A stretch of 64,000 nt of DNA from contig SHYX01000023.1 in assembly GCA_009692585.1 (NCBI GenBank), positions 10,884-74,883 of the forward strand, read 5' to 3'. The position numbers and the translations under genes were made by a program. Numbering within the stretch: position 1 is the stretch's first letter; each line of letters begins with the position of its first letter. A model generated the notes under the pieces. The model worked only from the letters and a program-made list of their open reading frames with translations. It was not told the DNA's origin and made no database searches. Shown here one piece after another: positions 7,759 through 54,336 of the stretch. The DNA comes from Myxococcales bacterium (GTDB lineage Bacteria > Myxococcota > UBA796 > SXON01).

Positions 7759-10700
7759 CTAACTCCGCAACCACTCCGCTCCCAGAAAGCGCTCGGCGTC
7801 CGCGGGCGAAAGATTCGCCGCCAACGCGCGCGCCAGAGCGTCCCCAATGCGCGAATGGCGCGCCACCGCCGCCTCGTCCGTGGACAGGGTCGCCGCGAGG
7901 ATGTGCCCCTTGAGCACATAGAGGCGGTAGCCGCAGGCGTCGGCGCGACGGATGGCCGAGTCCGCGTGACGTGCTGCTTCCGCACGGTCTTCCAACAGCC
8001 CATGGACGCGCGCCAGCGCAAGGTCCAGCCGAACCTCCTGATACGGCCAGCGGGGCCCAGGCGTGTCCCGTGCCGCGGCAACCTGGACATGAGCGGCGGC
8101 GGCATCGCCTGCGAGCGCGTGCACGCGCGCTTTCCAGGCGTGGACGATGCCGGTCCAGCCCTCGTGATCGACCTCACGGGCCAGCGCGAGCGCTTCGTCG
8201 ACAAGCGCGGCGGTGGCGGGGTCCCCGCCCTTGGCCCAGGACGCTCGGGTCAGGGGAATGAGCACCGACAGCACGAGGCTCGGATCGGCAAGCTCCCGCG
8301 CCGTCGTCAGCGCGCCCATCGCCTCGGCGAGCGCCTCGCCGGTGCGGCCGAGGTGCGTGAGGACGTCGGCCAATGCCGCGCGCGCCAGCACGATGCCGGC
8401 GGGTTGGTTCACCTCGCGGGCGTGGGCGACCGTCTTTTCCGCCAGCTCGATGCCGCGCCGCAGATTTCCGGTGCACACATGTACCTCGATGAGGTTGCCG
8501 CGCGCGAACACCAGTGGGGCCGCCAGGCCCAACCGCTCGAAGACGGCGGCCGCCTGCTCGAAGTTGCGACGGGCCTCGGCGGCCTGTCCCCGACAGGCCG
8601 CGACCATGCCCAGCCCGTTGTACCCGTACCCGATCGAACGCTCGTCGTGCGCACCCTCCGCCACCGCCAGGCCCTCGACCCAGTGGCGTCGGGCCGCCTC
8701 CAGGTCGCCACACGACCAGAGGACCGTCCCCAGTTGGTTGAGCACGAATCCGCGGGTCGTCTGATCGTTGGCGCGCTCGGCCAGGGCCAGCGCGGCGTGG
8801 AAGTGTTCGCGTGCCAGGGCCAGATCGCCGACCTTTAGGGCGCGGCGGCCCAGCGCGGCCTTCGCGCGGGCGCCAAGCTTCTCGTCGCCCAGCTCGTCCG
8901 CGATGCCGATGGCACGGGCCAGGTCAACATCGAGCCTTCCCCACTCGGCCAGGGCCTCCAGGGCTTCGATGCGCTTGAGGAGCAGCTCGCAGAGCAGGCG
9001 GTCGGCGTCGTCCAGGGGCATGAGCTCGCGGGCTTCCGGTTCCAGCGCCACCGCCCGGTCGAAGACGGAAAGCGCCTCCTTCGTGAACGAACGGCCGAGC
9101 AGGCGGGCGCCGGCGCGCAGCAGGTAGCTGTAGGCTTTCCCCGGCATCTCGCCGGCCTCGAAGTGGATCGCCAGCGCGTCGACGACGAGGTGCAGGCGGC
9201 CCCGCCCCAGACGTTCCAGGGTGTCGCCGATGCGGCGATGCAGGTCGATGCGCTCGGCGTTGCCGATCTCCCGACCCAGGACATCGCGGAAGCGCGCCTG
9301 GGCCACGTCGAGGTGCGTGGTCGTCTCCACGCGCCGCTCCCGGACGAGGCCCGCGGCGCTGAGCGCCTCGACCGCGCTGAGGAGTTCCGTGTGCGCCCCC
9401 CCGACCACGAGCGAGACTGCTTCCAGTGGAAGTTCGTGCCGCGCCAGCGAGAGCACCCGCAACACCGTTACGGCAAACGGACTTTGTCGCGATACGTCGG
9501 CCAGCAGGGCGTCGCGGGCGCTGCGCGGAATGGGCAACGGCACCCGATTCACGGCGGGTTCGTCCAAAAGAAGTCGCCATCCTTCGTCGGCCCAGGTCAG
9601 CACGCGCTCCTCGGCCAGCCCGCGCACCATCTCGACGATGAACGCCGGATTCCCCTCGCTGTCGCGGTGCAGGCGCCGCGCCAGGGCGCGCACCGCAGGC
9701 CCGGTGCCGAGCAGGTCACCCAGTAGCTCCTCCACGGCCTGCAACGCCAGGGGCCCCAGGTTGAGCAGGTGCGGGCGTACCCCGGTGGCGGTCCCGGTCA
9801 CGAGCCCGCCCGCGGTCGGGGCATCAGCCACTCGCGTCATCAGGAACAGGATGGACTCGTCCGACAGCGACCGTGTGGCCCGAATCAGGTACTCCAGGAA
9901 CTCCAGGCTGGCGGGATCCAAGCGGTGCACGTCGTCCACGACGATCAGGCGGGGCGGGCTGTCCGACAGCAGCGTGCGGACGGCGGAGAAGACGGCGAAG
10001 CGCTCGACGACCGCGCCATCCCCGAACGCGCCGAGCAACGCACGCAGCACTTCGGGGGGGTGGGGCACGCCGGCGGCGAGCGCCTCGATCAGCGGGCGGA
10101 AGGCGTCCATCGCGTTGCCGGGGCCGCCGCCGGCGATGACGTGGACCGGAAGCCCAGCCGAGCGGGCTTCGTCGCAGGCGAAGCGGGCGAGCGAGCTCCG
10201 TCCCAGACCGGGCGCCCCCTCAATCATCAACGCGTTGCCATGTCCGTCGAGGCAGGAGGCCACGGAGCCCAAGAGGGTGCCGCGCTCCGTCAGCCGGCCG
10301 ACCAGTGCCCCCGGCCACCGAGCGAGGTTCGCCGTGGCTCGCGGCGCGTCGTCCAAGGCGACCAGGACGTGTCGGGCGCTCGCGTACCGAAGCTCGGGCT
10401 CCTTCTGGAGCAGCCGAACGCACAGCTCGTCGAGGTCGGCGGGAATCGCCGGGTTGAGCTCGCGGGGGGGGCGAACTGGCCGGTGCAGGTGTTTGTCCAG
10501 GTAGCCGGCGATGGTCCGGGCGTGGAACGGCCGACGCCCGGTCAGGAGCAGAAAGACCAGCGCGCCGAGGGAGTACAGGTCGGTGCGCGCATCGATGGCC
10601 GCCCCGCTGATCTGCTCCGGCGACATCCACGCGACCGTGCCCAGGAGTTCGCCGTGCGAGGTCAGCTCGTCGTCGTCGTTGTCGTGCGCGCGTGCACTCT

Positions 10701-33195: not shown

Positions 33196-34719
33196 GTGCG
33201 GCGCTCCACGATTGCCGCGGTCGCGGTTCTGGCGGTGCTGGTTCCGATCGCAGCGATGCTGCCAGGGCTGGTGCCCACCGCCGCGCGCGCGCACGGCTTG
33301 GCCGTGAGGGAGGCGGGTTGGTGCCGCCGGGGACTGTGCGTCGACGGCGCCAGCGCCGGCCGGATCACCGCCCGAGCCGCCTACCTGGGTTGGGACGGCG
33401 TGCTGCACCTGGTCGACGTGAACATCGCCGACGAGCACGCGGCCGGGGGCGTCCTCGCGCGTGCCCAGCCCTCCGCCGACCTGAGCGCCGCCCGACTCCC
33501 GGACCTTCCCTTCGTGCGCCGGGTCGATGTCGAAAACCTCGTGGTCGAGGGCACGCCGCTGCCGCCGCTGTCGGGCCAGGTGCTCCCCGAGCGGCACCTC
33601 GTCGGCCAGGATGCCCGCGTCGACGGCGACCAGGCCGAGCTGATGCTCCACACCGAATTCGGCGACGTCCAGCTGACCGTGAGCCCGGGAGTTGCCGGGA
33701 GCCGCGCCGTCGCCGCGCGTTGTCGATGCACGCTGGAGCATCCTTCGCTCGGCGGCGCCCTGGTCGACCGCGACCTCCGCATCGCCGGCAACCTCGATGG
33801 CAGCACCTTCACCGGGGAGGTGATGGTGGAAGGCGTGCGGGTGGCGGTCGAGGCCCACCTCGGTGGGCCGGCACGCCTGACGGGGCGGTTTGCCCTGCGG
33901 CCGACGCCCATCGCGCAGGTGTACGCCATCTTCGCGCCGGTCGTGCCGGAGTTGGACCGCGCCGAGCTGCGGGGCACGATCTCCGGTACGGGTCGGCTGA
34001 CGATCGAGCCGCTGTCCGTCCACTTCGAACCGAAGATCGAGGCGTTCGCCGTGGATGGGCTCGTCGGTCCGGAGTACCGCTACGGCTCGTTCACCTGGTT
34101 GGGCCACGATGCGACCGGGGGGCCGACGCCGATCACCGGCGGGGACGAGGTCCCGGGCTGGATCTCGTTGCAGAACGTGGGCGAGCTGTTGCCCATGGCG
34201 ATCATCTCGGCGGAAGACGCTTCTTTTCTTCAGCATCCCGGCTTCGACGTCCAGGGAATGCTCGCGGCGGCGGACGCCAACGCGGAGGCACACGAGGTGG
34301 TGCGCGGGGGCAGCACGCTGACGCAGCAGCTCGCCAAGAACCTCTTCCTGACCGGCGATCGCTCCTACGCGAGGAAGCTGCGCGAGCTGCTCTATGCGGT
34401 GGAAATGGAACGTGAACTTGGGAAATCCAGGATACTGGAGCTGTACCTGAACGTCGTGGAGTGGGGCCCCGCCATCCACGGTGCCCGCGCGGCGTCCGAG
34501 GCGTACTTCCTCAAGGAACCGCGCGGATTGCTGACGGAGGAGGCTGCGTTTCTGGCCAGCATCCTCCGAAACCCCCGTGGCGGCTGGGCGCGACAGTACG
34601 TCGGCGGTCGGCTCAACGCCACACGCCTTGGGTGGATCATCGACAACATGGTGGGCCTGCACCCGGTCTTGCGCCGCGAGGCGCTGGCGCGCGAGGTGCG
34701 CTTCGTGCCGCCGGAGTAG
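33196..34719 (+). CDS. monofunctional peptidoglycan transglycosylase (GT51) with large N-terminal domain
   Basis: 507 aa, GTG start three bases after yihY. An N-terminal membrane anchor (about 5-30) precedes a beta-rich extracytoplasmic domain of about 280 residues. The C-terminal part (about 330-490) is GT51: ISAEDASFLQHPGFD with the catalytic Glu-Asp, RGGSTLTQQLAKNLFL, RKLRELLYAVEMER and ELYLNVVEWGPAIHG. There is no transpeptidase domain. The enzyme should polymerise lipid II into glycan strands. The long N-terminal extension is not part of MtgA-type enzymes and resembles AsmA-like beta sheets only loosely. Confidence 0.85.
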   Translation: MRRSTIAAVAVLAVLVPIAAMLPGLVPTAARAHGLAVREAGWCRRGLCVDGASAGRITARAAYLGWDGVLHLVDVNIADEHAAGGVLARAQPSADLSAARLPDLPFVRRVDVENLVVEGTPLPPLSGQVLPERHLVGQDARVDGDQAELMLHTEFGDVQLTVSPGVAGSRAVAARCRCTLEHPSLGGALVDRDLRIAGNLDGSTFTGEVMVEGVRVAVEAHLGGPARLTGRFALRPTPIAQVYAIFAPVVPELDRAELRGTISGTGRLTIEPLSVHFEPKIEAFAVDGLVGPEYRYGSFTWLGHDATGGPTPITGGDEVPGWISLQNVGELLPMAIISAEDASFLQHPGFDVQGMLAAADANAEAHEVVRGGSTLTQQLAKNLFLTGDRSYARKLRELLYAVEMERELGKSRILELYLNVVEWGPAIHGARAASEAYFLKEPRGLLTEEAAFLASILRNPRGGWARQYVGGRLNATRLGWIIDNMVGLHPVLRREALAREVRFVPPE

Positions 34720-36493: not shown

Positions 36494-38038
36494 ATGTTGC
36501 TTTTGAGCCTGCTCGTCGCCTGCCCGGTCGAAAACGTCATCAACGTCTCGAACAAGGACAAGGGCGACACCGAGCTCGAACCCGACATCGAGCTGGAGCC
36601 CGATTCCCTGACCTTCGACATGGCCGATCCGGGGTCGGTGGGCACAAAGAACATCGTCATCGAAAACCGTGGCGACCTCGACCTGCACATCACCAACCTC
36701 GTGCTCCAGGGGACCACCGCGTTCACGGTGGGCACCGAAGAGACCGCCGCCACCATCGCCCCGGGCTCCAGCATCACCGTGCCGATCAACTTCACACCGG
36801 TCAACCCTGAGGACTTCGCCAGCCTCGTCGTGACCAGTGACGACCCGGACAGCGCCCTCCTCGAAGTGCCGCTCATGGGCGCCGGCAAGATCCCGCAGCT
36901 GTACGTTTCGCCGAATCCGTACACCTTTGGCTCCGTACTCCTGGAGTGCCAGCGCGAACAGCCGCTCACCCTGACCAACATCGGCAATGGCACGCTCATC
37001 GTCGATCAGGCGGTCACCGTCGCCGCCGGCTTCACCCTCGGGTCCGGCACGCTCCCGGCGTACCTGGGTCCGGACGAGTCCGCGCAGGTGATGCTGACCT
37101 TCCGCCCCACCGAAGTGGCCGATTACGGTGGCGAGGTCTGGGTCAGCAGCAACTCCCTGGTCCCCAACACCATCGCGCCGGTCAGCGGGCACGGCACCAC
37201 GGACAAGGGCGTCGTCGACGAGTTCTGGCAGGGCGACGGGCCGTGGGATCGCACCGACATCTTCTTCTACGTGGACCAGTCGGGGAGCATGGCCGACGAT
37301 CAGGACAACATGATCGCCAACTTCTCCCACTTCGTCGACGCGCTGACCCTGCTCGACCTCGACTGGCAGATCATCATCTCCACGCGGGACACCGGGTGCA
37401 GCAACACCGGGATTCTGACCCCCGAAACGCCCAATCTCGAAACGGCCTTCCTCGAGGGCGTCCGCGGCGCGGGAGGCCGGTTCACCGAGGCTGGGTTGGT
37501 CGTGGCGTCCGAAGCGATGGAGCGTTCGGTCCCGGGCGAGTGCAACGACGGCTTCCTGCGGGAGGACAGCAAGACGTCGATCGTGATCGTCTCGGACGAG
37601 CCTGATCAGTCACCGGGAAGCTTCGCGACCTATGTCGCGACCATCCAGTCGTACGCCCCCACCGCGGCGATCACCGCCATCGTGGGCGACATTCCCAGCG
37701 GCTGCCTCTCCGACGTCGGCAGCGCCGACCCTGGTCACGGGTACTACGAGGCGGCGCTGGCCACCCATGGCGCCTTCCTGAGCATCTGCGAGCAGGACTG
37801 GACGACCTACTTCGACGCCATCGCGACCCTGTCGGCCACGGGCAAGACCGACCGATTCGCGCTGAGCACCCCCGCCGACCCGGCCACCATCGTGGTCTTG
37901 ATCGACAACGAGGTTCAGACGCGGGGCTGGACCTATGACGCCGACGGTCAGGCCATCGTCTTCGATGCCGACCACATCCCCGCCTCGGGCGCCTACATCC
38001 AGGTCCAGTACGAGCTGCTCGGCGACTGCGAGGGCTGA
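36494..38038 (+). CDS. lipoprotein with hydin-like Ig domains and a VWA domain
   Basis: 514 aa. Signal MLLLSLLVAC with lipidated Cys10. Two abnormal-spindle/hydin-type Ig-like domains (choice-of-anchor D; about 35-130 and 135-235) show LTFDMADPGSVGTKNIVIEN and YTFGSVLLECQREQPLTLTN. A von Willebrand A domain follows with an intact MIDAS DQSGSMADD (about 260). Extra cysteines suggest exported folding. Such proteins mediate adhesion or surface assembly. It is preceded by a decayed toxin-antitoxin locus and is probably monocistronic. Confidence 0.8.
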   Translation: MLLLSLLVACPVENVINVSNKDKGDTELEPDIELEPDSLTFDMADPGSVGTKNIVIENRGDLDLHITNLVLQGTTAFTVGTEETAATIAPGSSITVPINFTPVNPEDFASLVVTSDDPDSALLEVPLMGAGKIPQLYVSPNPYTFGSVLLECQREQPLTLTNIGNGTLIVDQAVTVAAGFTLGSGTLPAYLGPDESAQVMLTFRPTEVADYGGEVWVSSNSLVPNTIAPVSGHGTTDKGVVDEFWQGDGPWDRTDIFFYVDQSGSMADDQDNMIANFSHFVDALTLLDLDWQIIISTRDTGCSNTGILTPETPNLETAFLEGVRGAGGRFTEAGLVVASEAMERSVPGECNDGFLREDSKTSIVIVSDEPDQSPGSFATYVATIQSYAPTAAITAIVGDIPSGCLSDVGSADPGHGYYEAALATHGAFLSICEQDWTTYFDAIATLSATGKTDRFALSTPADPATIVVLIDNEVQTRGWTYDADGQAIVFDADHIPASGAYIQVQYELLGDCEG

Positions 38039-43349: not shown

Positions 43350-43399
43350 GTCCCCCGCGGGAGGTGGCCCGCACGGCATGGCCCGGCTACCCGCCTGAC

Positions 43400-43996
43400 A
43401 TGACGCTTCTCTCTTTGCTCGCGTGCACCTCCGGTGCCCCCGTCGCCGACGGCGACACCCAGCCGATCGCCGACTCCGGAAACTCCGACGATTCCGGCGA
43501 CGGCACGCCCGTCGACACCGACCTCGAGCTCAACGGCACCTGGGCGACGAATCGGGCTCCTGCCCCCGATTTCGTGGCGACCAACCGTGATAAGAGCGGA
43601 CGGAGCCGCGTCGACCTGATCGGCCATCCCACCGTCGTCTGGTTCTACCCGGCCGCCGGGACCTCTGGGTGAACCACCGAGGGTTGCGGGTACCGCGACC
43701 AACAGGAGGAATTCGACGCGTTGGGTGTGCACATCGTGGGAGTGAGCTTCGACCGCCCTTCCGCCAACCAGGCATGGGCCGAGGACCAATCCTACCTGTT
43801 CGAGCTCTGGACTGACGACGACAAGACCCTCGCCATCACCTACGGCGCCGCAGCCGACGTGTCGGCGATCTGGGCCGACAGGCTGACGATGCTCCTGGAC
43901 GCCGAGGGCGTGCTGTTGGTGGAGTACCAACAGGTGTCCGTGGGCACGCATCCGGCCCAGGTGCTCGAGGACTGCCAGGCGATCTTCGGCGATTAG
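43400..43996 (+). CDS. selenocysteine-containing peroxiredoxin lipoprotein (in-frame TGA at 43670-43672)
   Basis: 198 codons read through one TGA. Signal MTLLSLLAC has lipidated Cys9, then an Asp/Thr/Ser linker. The peroxiredoxin (AhpC/TSA, Bcp-like) domain starts near NRAPAPDFVAT. Codon 91 is TGA in the context YPAAGTSG-U-TTEGCGYRD. This matches PxxxTxxC, with Sec in place of the peroxidatic cysteine and the Bcp-type resolving Cys at +5. VGVSFDRPSANQAWAED and GVLLVEYQQVSVG follow. An 8-bp hairpin begins 10 bases after the TGA. Selenocysteine peroxiredoxins are known in deltaproteobacteria. The role is inferred: reduction of peroxides in the periplasm. A nonsense mutation is unlikely because homology resumes in frame. 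Confidence 0.88.
43682..43700 (+). promoter_or_regulatory. putative bacterial SECIS hairpin
   Basis: ggttgcgg (43682-43689) pairs with ccgcgacc (43693-43700), seven Watson-Crick pairs plus one G-T, with a small gta loop (or ggtac if the last pair opens). It begins 10 bases after the UGA within the same coding frame. Bacterial SECIS elements sit just 3' of the UGA, with a G and U in the apical loop that SelB reads. The sequence meets the distance and loop expectations, but binding is inferred. Confidence 0.7.
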
Positions 43997-53341: not shown

Positions 53342-54336
53342 TCTTCCCAGCGCTCAGATGCCCACCCGGCAACCTCGGTGGGTGGGCGGGTCAGGCGCAA
53401 GAAGCCCTCGGTGTAGCCGAAGTCCCGGAGCATCACGCCCAGTGGGCGGGTGATGAGCACCCCCACGCAGCACAGGCAGTAGCCCGGCAGCGTCGCCAGG
53501 AGGCCCAGGAAACTGAGCAGCGCCATGTACAGGAGCAGCCAGGCGCGCCCGCCCCGCGTCAGCGCCACCGACCGATCGATGGCCGCCATGATCCCCTGGC
53601 CTTCGAGCGCGATGATGTGCGGCACGAAGGCGAGGCACAAGCGCATCCAGATCGACGCCACCACCACTCCGACCGCCCAGAGCCCGCACGCGGCGCCCAC
53701 CAGGAGCATCATCGAGGGCTCGTCGACGAAGAACAACGCGCCCAGCGGGAGGGCGGCGATGACGATGGTTGCGAGACCCAGGAGTCCGGACAGCAGCCCC
53801 CACCCCAGCGAACGCAAGAAGACGTCCCCCGCCCCGAAGAGCGTACCGAATCGCCCCGTGCCGTCGCGCAGGATCTCCTGATGGAGCCGGATCCAGCCCG
53901 GCGTGATCCACGCGTTGAGCGCGAGAATGAGCAACACCAGGACGACCACCAGCGCCACCACCGCCACCATCAATCCCATTCCAAGCCCGCCGAAGAGAAT
54001 GGCGGGATCGAAAGGGAGTTCGTCCGCGATCCACGGGCCCACGGGCGGTCCCATGTTCGACCCGAGCGAGATCCTGCTCGGGTCGAACGAACCGTCGGCC
54101 AGCTTCTTGAGGGTCTCGATGTCGTCGGGCGAAACGCTGTTCCCGCCGCTGCCACCGCCCTCGCTGCACGACTTCAGCAGGCCGCCGCCCAGGACCACCC
54201 AGAAATTGCGTCGTATGGCGTGAACGCCGTTGCGGATGCCCCGCTCGATGTCGAAAGCGACACTGACGGCCATCTGCGCCCCGCCTCCGGGAGGCTCGGC
54301 CGCGCCGGCGGGGAGTTCATCGTATGTAGAGTCCAT
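53338..54336 (-). CDS. polytopic membrane protein, unknown function
   Basis: 332 aa with about six hydrophobic segments: NFWVVLGGGLLKS, LMVAVVALVVVLVLLILAL, LLSGLLGLATIVIAALPLGA, MLLVGAACGLWAVGVVVASI, LLLYMALLSFLGLLATLPGY and CVGVLITRPLGVML. The loop GQGIMAAIDRSVALTRGGRA resembles the helix-breaking loop of multi-pass membrane domains found with glycerophosphodiesterases (DUF4013-like). There is no catalytic signature. It lies three bases after the pseudopilin gene on the same strand. Confidence 0.65.
   Translation of the reverse strand: MDSTYDELPAGAAEPPGGGAQMAVSVAFDIERGIRNGVHAIRRNFWVVLGGGLLKSCSEGGGSGGNSVSPDDIETLKKLADGSFDPSRISLGSNMGPPVGPWIADELPFDPAILFGGLGMGLMVAVVALVVVLVLLILALNAWITPGWIRLHQEILRDGTGRFGTLFGAGDVFLRSLGWGLLSGLLGLATIVIAALPLGALFFVDEPSMMLLVGAACGLWAVGVVVASIWMRLCLAFVPHIIALEGQGIMAAIDRSVALTRGGRAWLLLYMALLSFLGLLATLPGYCLCCVGVLITRPLGVMLRDFGYTEGFLRLTRPPTEVAGWASERWED

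Follow-up and report, generated by a model that had tools for sequence, protein, structure and literature searches.

A likely selenocysteine-containing peroxiredoxin of the PrxQ/Bcp type with a predicted lipoprotein signal in a Myxococcales bacterium

Peroxiredoxins of the PrxQ/Bcp type (PF00578), such as Xanthomonas PrxQ (5iph) and Sulfolobus Bcp1 (3drn), have in common with the protein described here the fold, the PxxxTxxC motif and a resolving Cys at +5. Enzymes of this kind with selenocysteine (Sec) in a TxxU motif have long been known: PMC1088965 describes a Prx family of 43 Sargasso Sea genes within COG1225, and the Sec peroxiredoxin of Eubacterium acidaminophilum, also with TxxU, is cited in PMC13188914. 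Judged by these descriptions, the bacterial Sec peroxiredoxins have Sec at the same site, and the same TxxU, as our gene. The gene lies in a stretch of 64,000 nucleotides from a Myxococcales bacterium, hereafter the window, and positions refer to the plus strand unless stated otherwise.

The coding sequence (43400..43996) specifies 198 amino acids including residue 91, followed by the stop TAG. Its translation, MTLLSLLAC...PAAGTSG-TGA-TTEGCGYRD..., is interrupted only once, by an in-frame TGA (43670..43672) that the preliminary description had equated with the peroxidatic Cys. This placement holds, as the TGA is codon 91, homologues have Cys there, and TGA stands at the equivalent codon in 76 further copies. 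The PxxxTxxC motif and the resolving Cys proposed alongside it are present as PAAGTSGU and Cys96, the codon of the latter (43685..43687) falling inside the hairpin described below. The AhpC-TSA profile PF00578 runs across the TGA over residues 54–172, well above its gathering score (79.7 bits, cut-off 26), so the in-frame homology asserted past the TGA was found, while the number of codons given for it, about 108, becomes 107 sense codons. GC content by codon position is 0.63/0.58/0.84 upstream of the TGA and 0.67/0.40/0.88 downstream, with a high third position on both sides. The peroxiredoxin domain occupies residues 49–198 (43544..43993) and is preceded by an Asp/Ser/Thr/Gly-rich linker of residues 10–48 (43427..43543), where model confidence is mostly low. 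The protein scores 66.6 bits against the NCBIfam Bcp equivalog PRK09437, whose cut-off is 140, and by these profile scores is a relative of Bcp outside that equivalog. The peroxiredoxin domain is also common to PrxU (NF040737), of which the window protein is not a member (29 bits, cut-off 270).

A protein search returned 22 hits, among them nine full-length Cys forms (P0002–P0010), one protein with Trp (P0011) and four distant Cys homologues (P0019–P0022). The preliminary description had looked to relatives for Cys at codon 91 and had held that Trp or a stop there, with no Cys, would speak against Sec; the nine full-length forms supply the Cys, and Trp occurs in P0011 alone. In alignment A1, the rows lacking TGA have Cys in 13 of 14 cases. 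The remaining hits are fragments: seven of 108–110 amino acids (P0012–P0018) start two codons past the TGA position, and P0023 stops just before it. They match the expectation that gene callers would split such a gene, a reading that is taken from the proteins alone and not from their DNA.

Scanning of genome contigs confirmed nine loci, L001–L009, and because all nine share TGA at the same codon, the TGA is not there by chance. The closest two, L001 and L002, are 83–84% identical in nucleotides to the window over long stretches around the gene. By the phylum labels in their records, L001, L002, L003 and L008 belong to Myxococcota, and L004–L007 and L009 to Pseudomonadota.

Copies were then counted more widely. 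Matches at E <= 1e-25 were obtained from 59 of the 71 genomes belonging to the class of the nearest genome. The class census comprised 30 loci, 40 of 47 other matches, L001–L009 and the window, all read for the catalytic motif. The motif scan, which permitted TGA, TAA, TAG or a Cys codon at the site, yielded 67 TGA and 10 TGC rows, duplicates included, and neither TAA nor TAG in any of them. After removal of duplicates, 58 Sec and 10 Cys copies were retained, and L059, a Sec copy missed by the motif, was added to give 59 Sec copies with the window. Three loci not fitted by the motif were left out of the counts: L091 and L092, which are ordinary Cys Bcp-like genes, and L081, whose catalytic site holds neither Sec nor Cys although its genome (G024) has tRNA-Sec and SelB hits. 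Seven further class matches also stand outside the counts, six being ordinary Cys Bcp-like genes (one listed with TAG has Cys at the site) and the seventh L152. A draw of 377 genomes across the phylum, in which no more than eight candidates were scored in each, found matches at E <= 1e-38 in 72 genomes; 18 of these lie outside the class, and each of the 18 has one TGA. The motif fits 17 of the 18 copies, and the other, L131, has Sec with Leu instead of the resolving Cys. The distinct TGA-bearing copies thereby number 77 including the window, 59 for the class and 18 elsewhere in the phylum. Bcp-like paralogues account for seven of the 10 Cys copies, and in the tree only L024, L027 and L069 group within the lipoprotein clade. 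On this tree of 80 rows, built without P0006, P0022, the fragments and the partial gene in L007, parsimony requires at least 11 changes between Sec and other states, four of them forced by well-supported branches, with bootstrap values that are not settled. A tblastn search against phage records matched 17 records, all below 60% identity, one of which, H2 (29%), is annotated as a selenocysteine-containing peroxiredoxin.

Nine nucleotides after the UGA lies a SECIS-like hairpin, GGUUGCGG-GUA-CCGCGACC (43682..43700), of 8 bp closed by a triloop. The consensus over the Sec copies is GGTTGCGGGT[A/T]CCGCGACC, starting nine bases past the TGA. Its 18-base core GGTTGCGGGTWCCGCGAC (GGTTGCGGGT[A/T]CCGCGAC) is identical in 74 of the 77 Sec copies (58/59 in the class, 16/18 outside it) and in none of the 10 Cys copies; because the Sec copies are related by descent, these 74 cores are not 74 independent events. 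The exact 18-mer was found at 57 places in 50 of the 71 class genomes scanned. Two Cys copies of the lipoprotein clade, L024 and L027, have the same residues GCGYRD with different codons. GGT and GGG, the Gly codons fixed in the core, account for 16% and 19% of Gly codons elsewhere in the in-class Sec genes. Moreover, the stem-closing base that follows the core is C in 74 of 76 copies, though it is the first base of codons for several residues. In 72 of 76 Sec copies the 19-mer folds into 8 pairs and a triloop at -11.9 kcal/mol, and the corresponding 19-mer folds at -1.0 to -5.6 kcal/mol in nine of the 10 Cys copies. The exception, L083 (G071, minus strand; -10.0 kcal/mol), is a Cys copy with an almost intact SECIS-like hairpin, which is probably the relic of a Sec ancestor after a Sec-to-Cys change. 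The identical core is also present in L084 and L085, two distant Bcp-like Sec copies without a lipobox.

Three Sec copies deviate from the core, and two of them, L131 and L136, stay paired through compensatory changes on both sides of the stem. In L131 (1289–1339, minus strand), the codon of the resolving Cys has been lost to Leu, and the hairpin is re-paired by two-sided changes. A covariation test on 18 of the 77 sequences, chosen to hold all deviants, found 97.9% of cells paired and two double-changed pairs; the first ten sequences alone contain no covariation. One of 500 shuffles attained the observed value on four measures, and 34 did so on further pair types. When the structure was slid along the alignment, the real position outperformed all but one of the six slid versions whichever measure was used. 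The remaining one, a slide of +3, ties on pair types and has a higher covariation score (0.119 vs 0.096) with 52% of cells paired. Rfam at gathering score gave no family anywhere in the window. Two other Sec candidates of the window, picked out by a loose TGA-hairpin pattern, are on the minus strand, and both were rejected: at 33811 the codon-position composition is unlike that of coding sequence, and at 53393 the open frames are short.

The genomes of the nine relatives contain Sec machinery above cut-off: tRNA-Sec in 7/9, SelB in 7/9, SelA in 8/9 and SelD in 9/9. All seven tRNA-Sec have the anticodon TCA by ARAGORN. The nearest relative, G001, has tRNA-Sec, SelA, SelB and a TGA-bearing SelD; the second-nearest, G002, gave no SelB hit. 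Among 14 control genomes, the cut-offs were passed by tRNA-Sec in five, SelB in two, SelA in one and SelD in two. Across the 71 class genomes, tRNA-Sec is above cut-off in 52 and SelB in 59. Sec copy and tRNA-Sec occur together in 43 genomes, the Sec copy only in eight, the tRNA only in nine and neither in 11 (Fisher p 0.002, only a guide, as the genomes are related and their completeness is unstated). A tRNA-Sec hit is therefore missing from eight of the 51 class genomes with a Sec copy, three of which (G018, G023 and G062) also lack a SelB hit, in assemblies of unstated completeness. We considered that loss of tRNA-Sec might be tied to the Cys form, since G012 and G013 have Cys orthologues and no tRNA-Sec hit, and dropped the idea because both have SelB above cut-off. 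A SelD copy with one TGA is found in six of the nine relatives, and the SelD proteins of G004, G001, G002 and G008 (L144, L145, L146 and L148) are themselves likely selenoproteins. In the window itself, ARAGORN called a 93-nt tRNA-Ala(ggc) at 9624–9716, which matches no Rfam family at gathering score and is probably false. As to the genetic code, the 58 in-class Sec genes with a visible end terminate in TGA (31), TAG (21, the window gene having this stop) or TAA (6); because TGA is the terminator in 31 of them, it is not globally reassigned.

The preliminary description read the N-terminus as a lipobox and the enzyme as lipid-anchored. In the window the putative signal is MTLLSLLA-C9 (43400..43426), with Cys9 predicted to be lipidated. 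The lipobox has the form [LVI][ASTVI][GAS]C near the N-terminus, and bacterial lipoprotein signals are of ordinary length with a positively charged n-region. Compared with this motif, LLAC at residues 6–9 conforms at -3 (Leu) and -1 (Ala) but has Leu at -2, and only eight residues, none of them Lys or Arg, precede the Cys. A permissive lipobox pattern, whose background rate was not computed, recurs in 50 of the 59 in-class Sec copies, its Cys preceded by 6 to 23 residues; it is absent from nine, among which L084 and L085 look cytosolic. In the out-of-class copies, judged by eye and unscored, the signals are longer, look ordinary and end in a lipobox-like Cys. The lipobox thus stands as a recurring pattern, but the signal is unusually short and uncharged, and the anchor itself is a prediction. 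Apparent lipoprotein signals with only six or seven residues before the Cys also occur in L004, L037 and L050, where an in-frame TAG lies a few codons upstream, and a second protein of the window (36494–38038) likewise looks like a lipoprotein with a short signal, MLLLSLLVAC.

The region before the start codon is conserved as well. NTA begins 12–14 bases upstream of the ATG in 23 of the 42 Sec copies that start with ATG (GGCTACCC and variants), a count without a shuffled control, and in three copies with a doubled ATG it keeps this distance from the first ATG. In ten copies (L004, L031, L033, L035, L037, L038, L039, L042, L045 and L050) an in-frame stop sits three to four codons upstream of the ATG. 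This rules out a longer N-terminus in these ten, and because the stop falls within the conserved element, the element is DNA rather than protein. A -10 hexamer at -12/-11 places the transcription start on the ATG. The window has a probable -10 element, TACCCG (43388..43393), with TA at -12/-11 from the ATG, and this suggests a leaderless mRNA starting at or next to the ATG. When the window and six loci were scanned for TANNNT elements together with short lipoprotein signals, the cases were too sparse to tell.

Based on these comparisons, we consider it likely that the gene encodes a selenoprotein, namely an envelope lipoprotein of the PrxQ/Bcp peroxiredoxin type in which Sec serves as the peroxidatic residue. 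Sequence comparison shows the recoding geometry, the conserved RNA element, the fold and motif, the recurring lipobox pattern and the machinery of close relatives. The assignment of residue 91 as Sec is supported by the TGA copies, the Cys homologues, the SECIS-like hairpin and the relatives' machinery together. A nonsense mutation, a pseudogene or a sequencing error would also leave a gene split by an in-frame stop and split-looking fragments in the databases; an accident of this kind would hardly recur as TGA in 77 distinct copies and as TAA or TAG in none of the motif-scan rows, and the synonymous sites downstream are frozen in the Sec copies and not in the Cys copies, so we reject it. Global reassignment of TGA to Trp, Gly or Cys in this lineage, which the Trp of homologue P0011 might recall, is rejected with equal firmness, given the use of TGA to end 31 of 58 in-class Sec genes, the tRNA-Sec with anticodon TCA and the SelA, SelB and SelD of relatives, and the predominance of Cys in the non-TGA rows of A1 (13/14). 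A selenium-dependent switch, in which UGA would terminate under low selenium and a 90-residue lipopeptide with a role of its own would be the main product, draws on the fact that the stretch from the tether through to Sec91 forms a complete open unit. We regard it as very improbable, as ordinary peroxiredoxin conservation continues on both sides of the codon and nothing was found that favours a function of the short product.

The anchor invites a more serious alternative, in which the protein is a Sec peroxiredoxin in the cytoplasm, either because the eight-residue N-terminus is no working signal or because translation starts elsewhere. Many copies with only 6–9 residues before the Cys, the lack of Lys and Arg in the window and the plain N-termini of the two distant Sec copies L084 and L085 would all fit such a protein. 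On the other hand, the permissive lipobox of 50/59 in-class Sec copies, the longer signals seen by eye outside the class, the low-complexity tether that follows the Cys, and the upstream in-frame stops that exclude a longer N-terminus in ten copies favour export, and we think a cytoplasmic protein unlikely. The lipoprotein selenoprotein is therefore retained as the preferred reading.

As an envelope selenoprotein, the enzyme may work as follows. The mRNA probably begins at or next to the ATG and translation would start from 43400; SelB, presumably bound to the hairpin at 43682–43700, would deliver Sec-tRNASec at UGA91 instead of termination. MTLLSLLAC would be exported and Cys9 lipidated, leaving the domain outside the cytoplasm on an acidic, flexible tether of about 40 residues. 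By analogy with the family, Sec91 would attack the peroxide and be converted to a selenenic acid, which Cys96 would resolve to a selenenylsulfide, and a putative thioredoxin-like thiol partner outside the cytoplasm would reduce the latter. We looked in the window for this reductant as an operon partner, and the gene is flanked by two minus-strand ORFs with no partner visible. Cys192 in the C-terminal helix (codon 43973..43975) is a possible third redox Cys; Cys is found there in 40 of the 59 in-class Sec copies, a further 10 being unscored by the pattern.

Should the enzyme indeed be lipid-anchored, selenium would be invested in clearing peroxides from the membrane surface, and whether bacteria repair lipid peroxides then becomes a testable question. 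One speculative and rather doubtful extension is that the protein is a membrane-tethered selenoperoxidase repairing lipid hydroperoxides of the envelope, a convergent bacterial counterpart of eukaryotic GPX4 kept across the class and other lineages of the phylum. Selection would then have been sufficiently strong to keep an 18-base SECIS core unchanged in 74/77 copies. The protein would extend the bacterial selenoproteome by a peroxidase anchored to the envelope, from a gene family that annotation tends to split in two. The near-invariant hairpin, with its natural compensatory variants and Cys copies, also provides an unusually clean data set for SelB recognition.

The hairpin can be compared with the SECIS of E. 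coli fdhF, which is likewise a stem-loop just past the UGA; both contain GGTTGCxGGT. The first ten bases of the fdhF stem-loop GGTTGCAGGT are one base off those of the window hairpin, and the 5' side and loop resemble each other. The two differ in geometry: fdhF has an 11-nt spacer, a bulged U and a 4-nt loop, whereas the window hairpin has a 9-nt spacer, 8 bp and a triloop. The hairpin of the TGA-bearing SelD genes (G001, G002, G004 and G008), with triloop GGC, forms by eye 8 pairs from 9 nt after the TGA like that of the peroxiredoxin, but is unlike it in stem sequence and loop. We therefore rejected the idea that the peroxiredoxin hairpin is one lineage-wide SECIS, as SelD in the same genomes has a different hairpin sequence.

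With regard to the literature, the words lipoprotein and signal peptide are absent from the main texts of PMC1088965, PMC13188914 and PMC9312934, and these two words and peroxiredoxin are absent from PMC12013277. No title among the matches listed, in a literature from which subscription journals are mostly missing, describes a lipoprotein Sec peroxiredoxin, and none of the papers found there with both selenoprotein and Myxococcota is a selenoproteome study, judged by title. Compared with PrxQ/Bcp, the window enzyme differs in Sec in place of the peroxidatic Cys, an N-terminal lipobox and an acidic tether. Thus, TxxU enzymes are known, and what our work adds to the literature covered is a conserved clade of lipoprotein-type Sec PrxQ.
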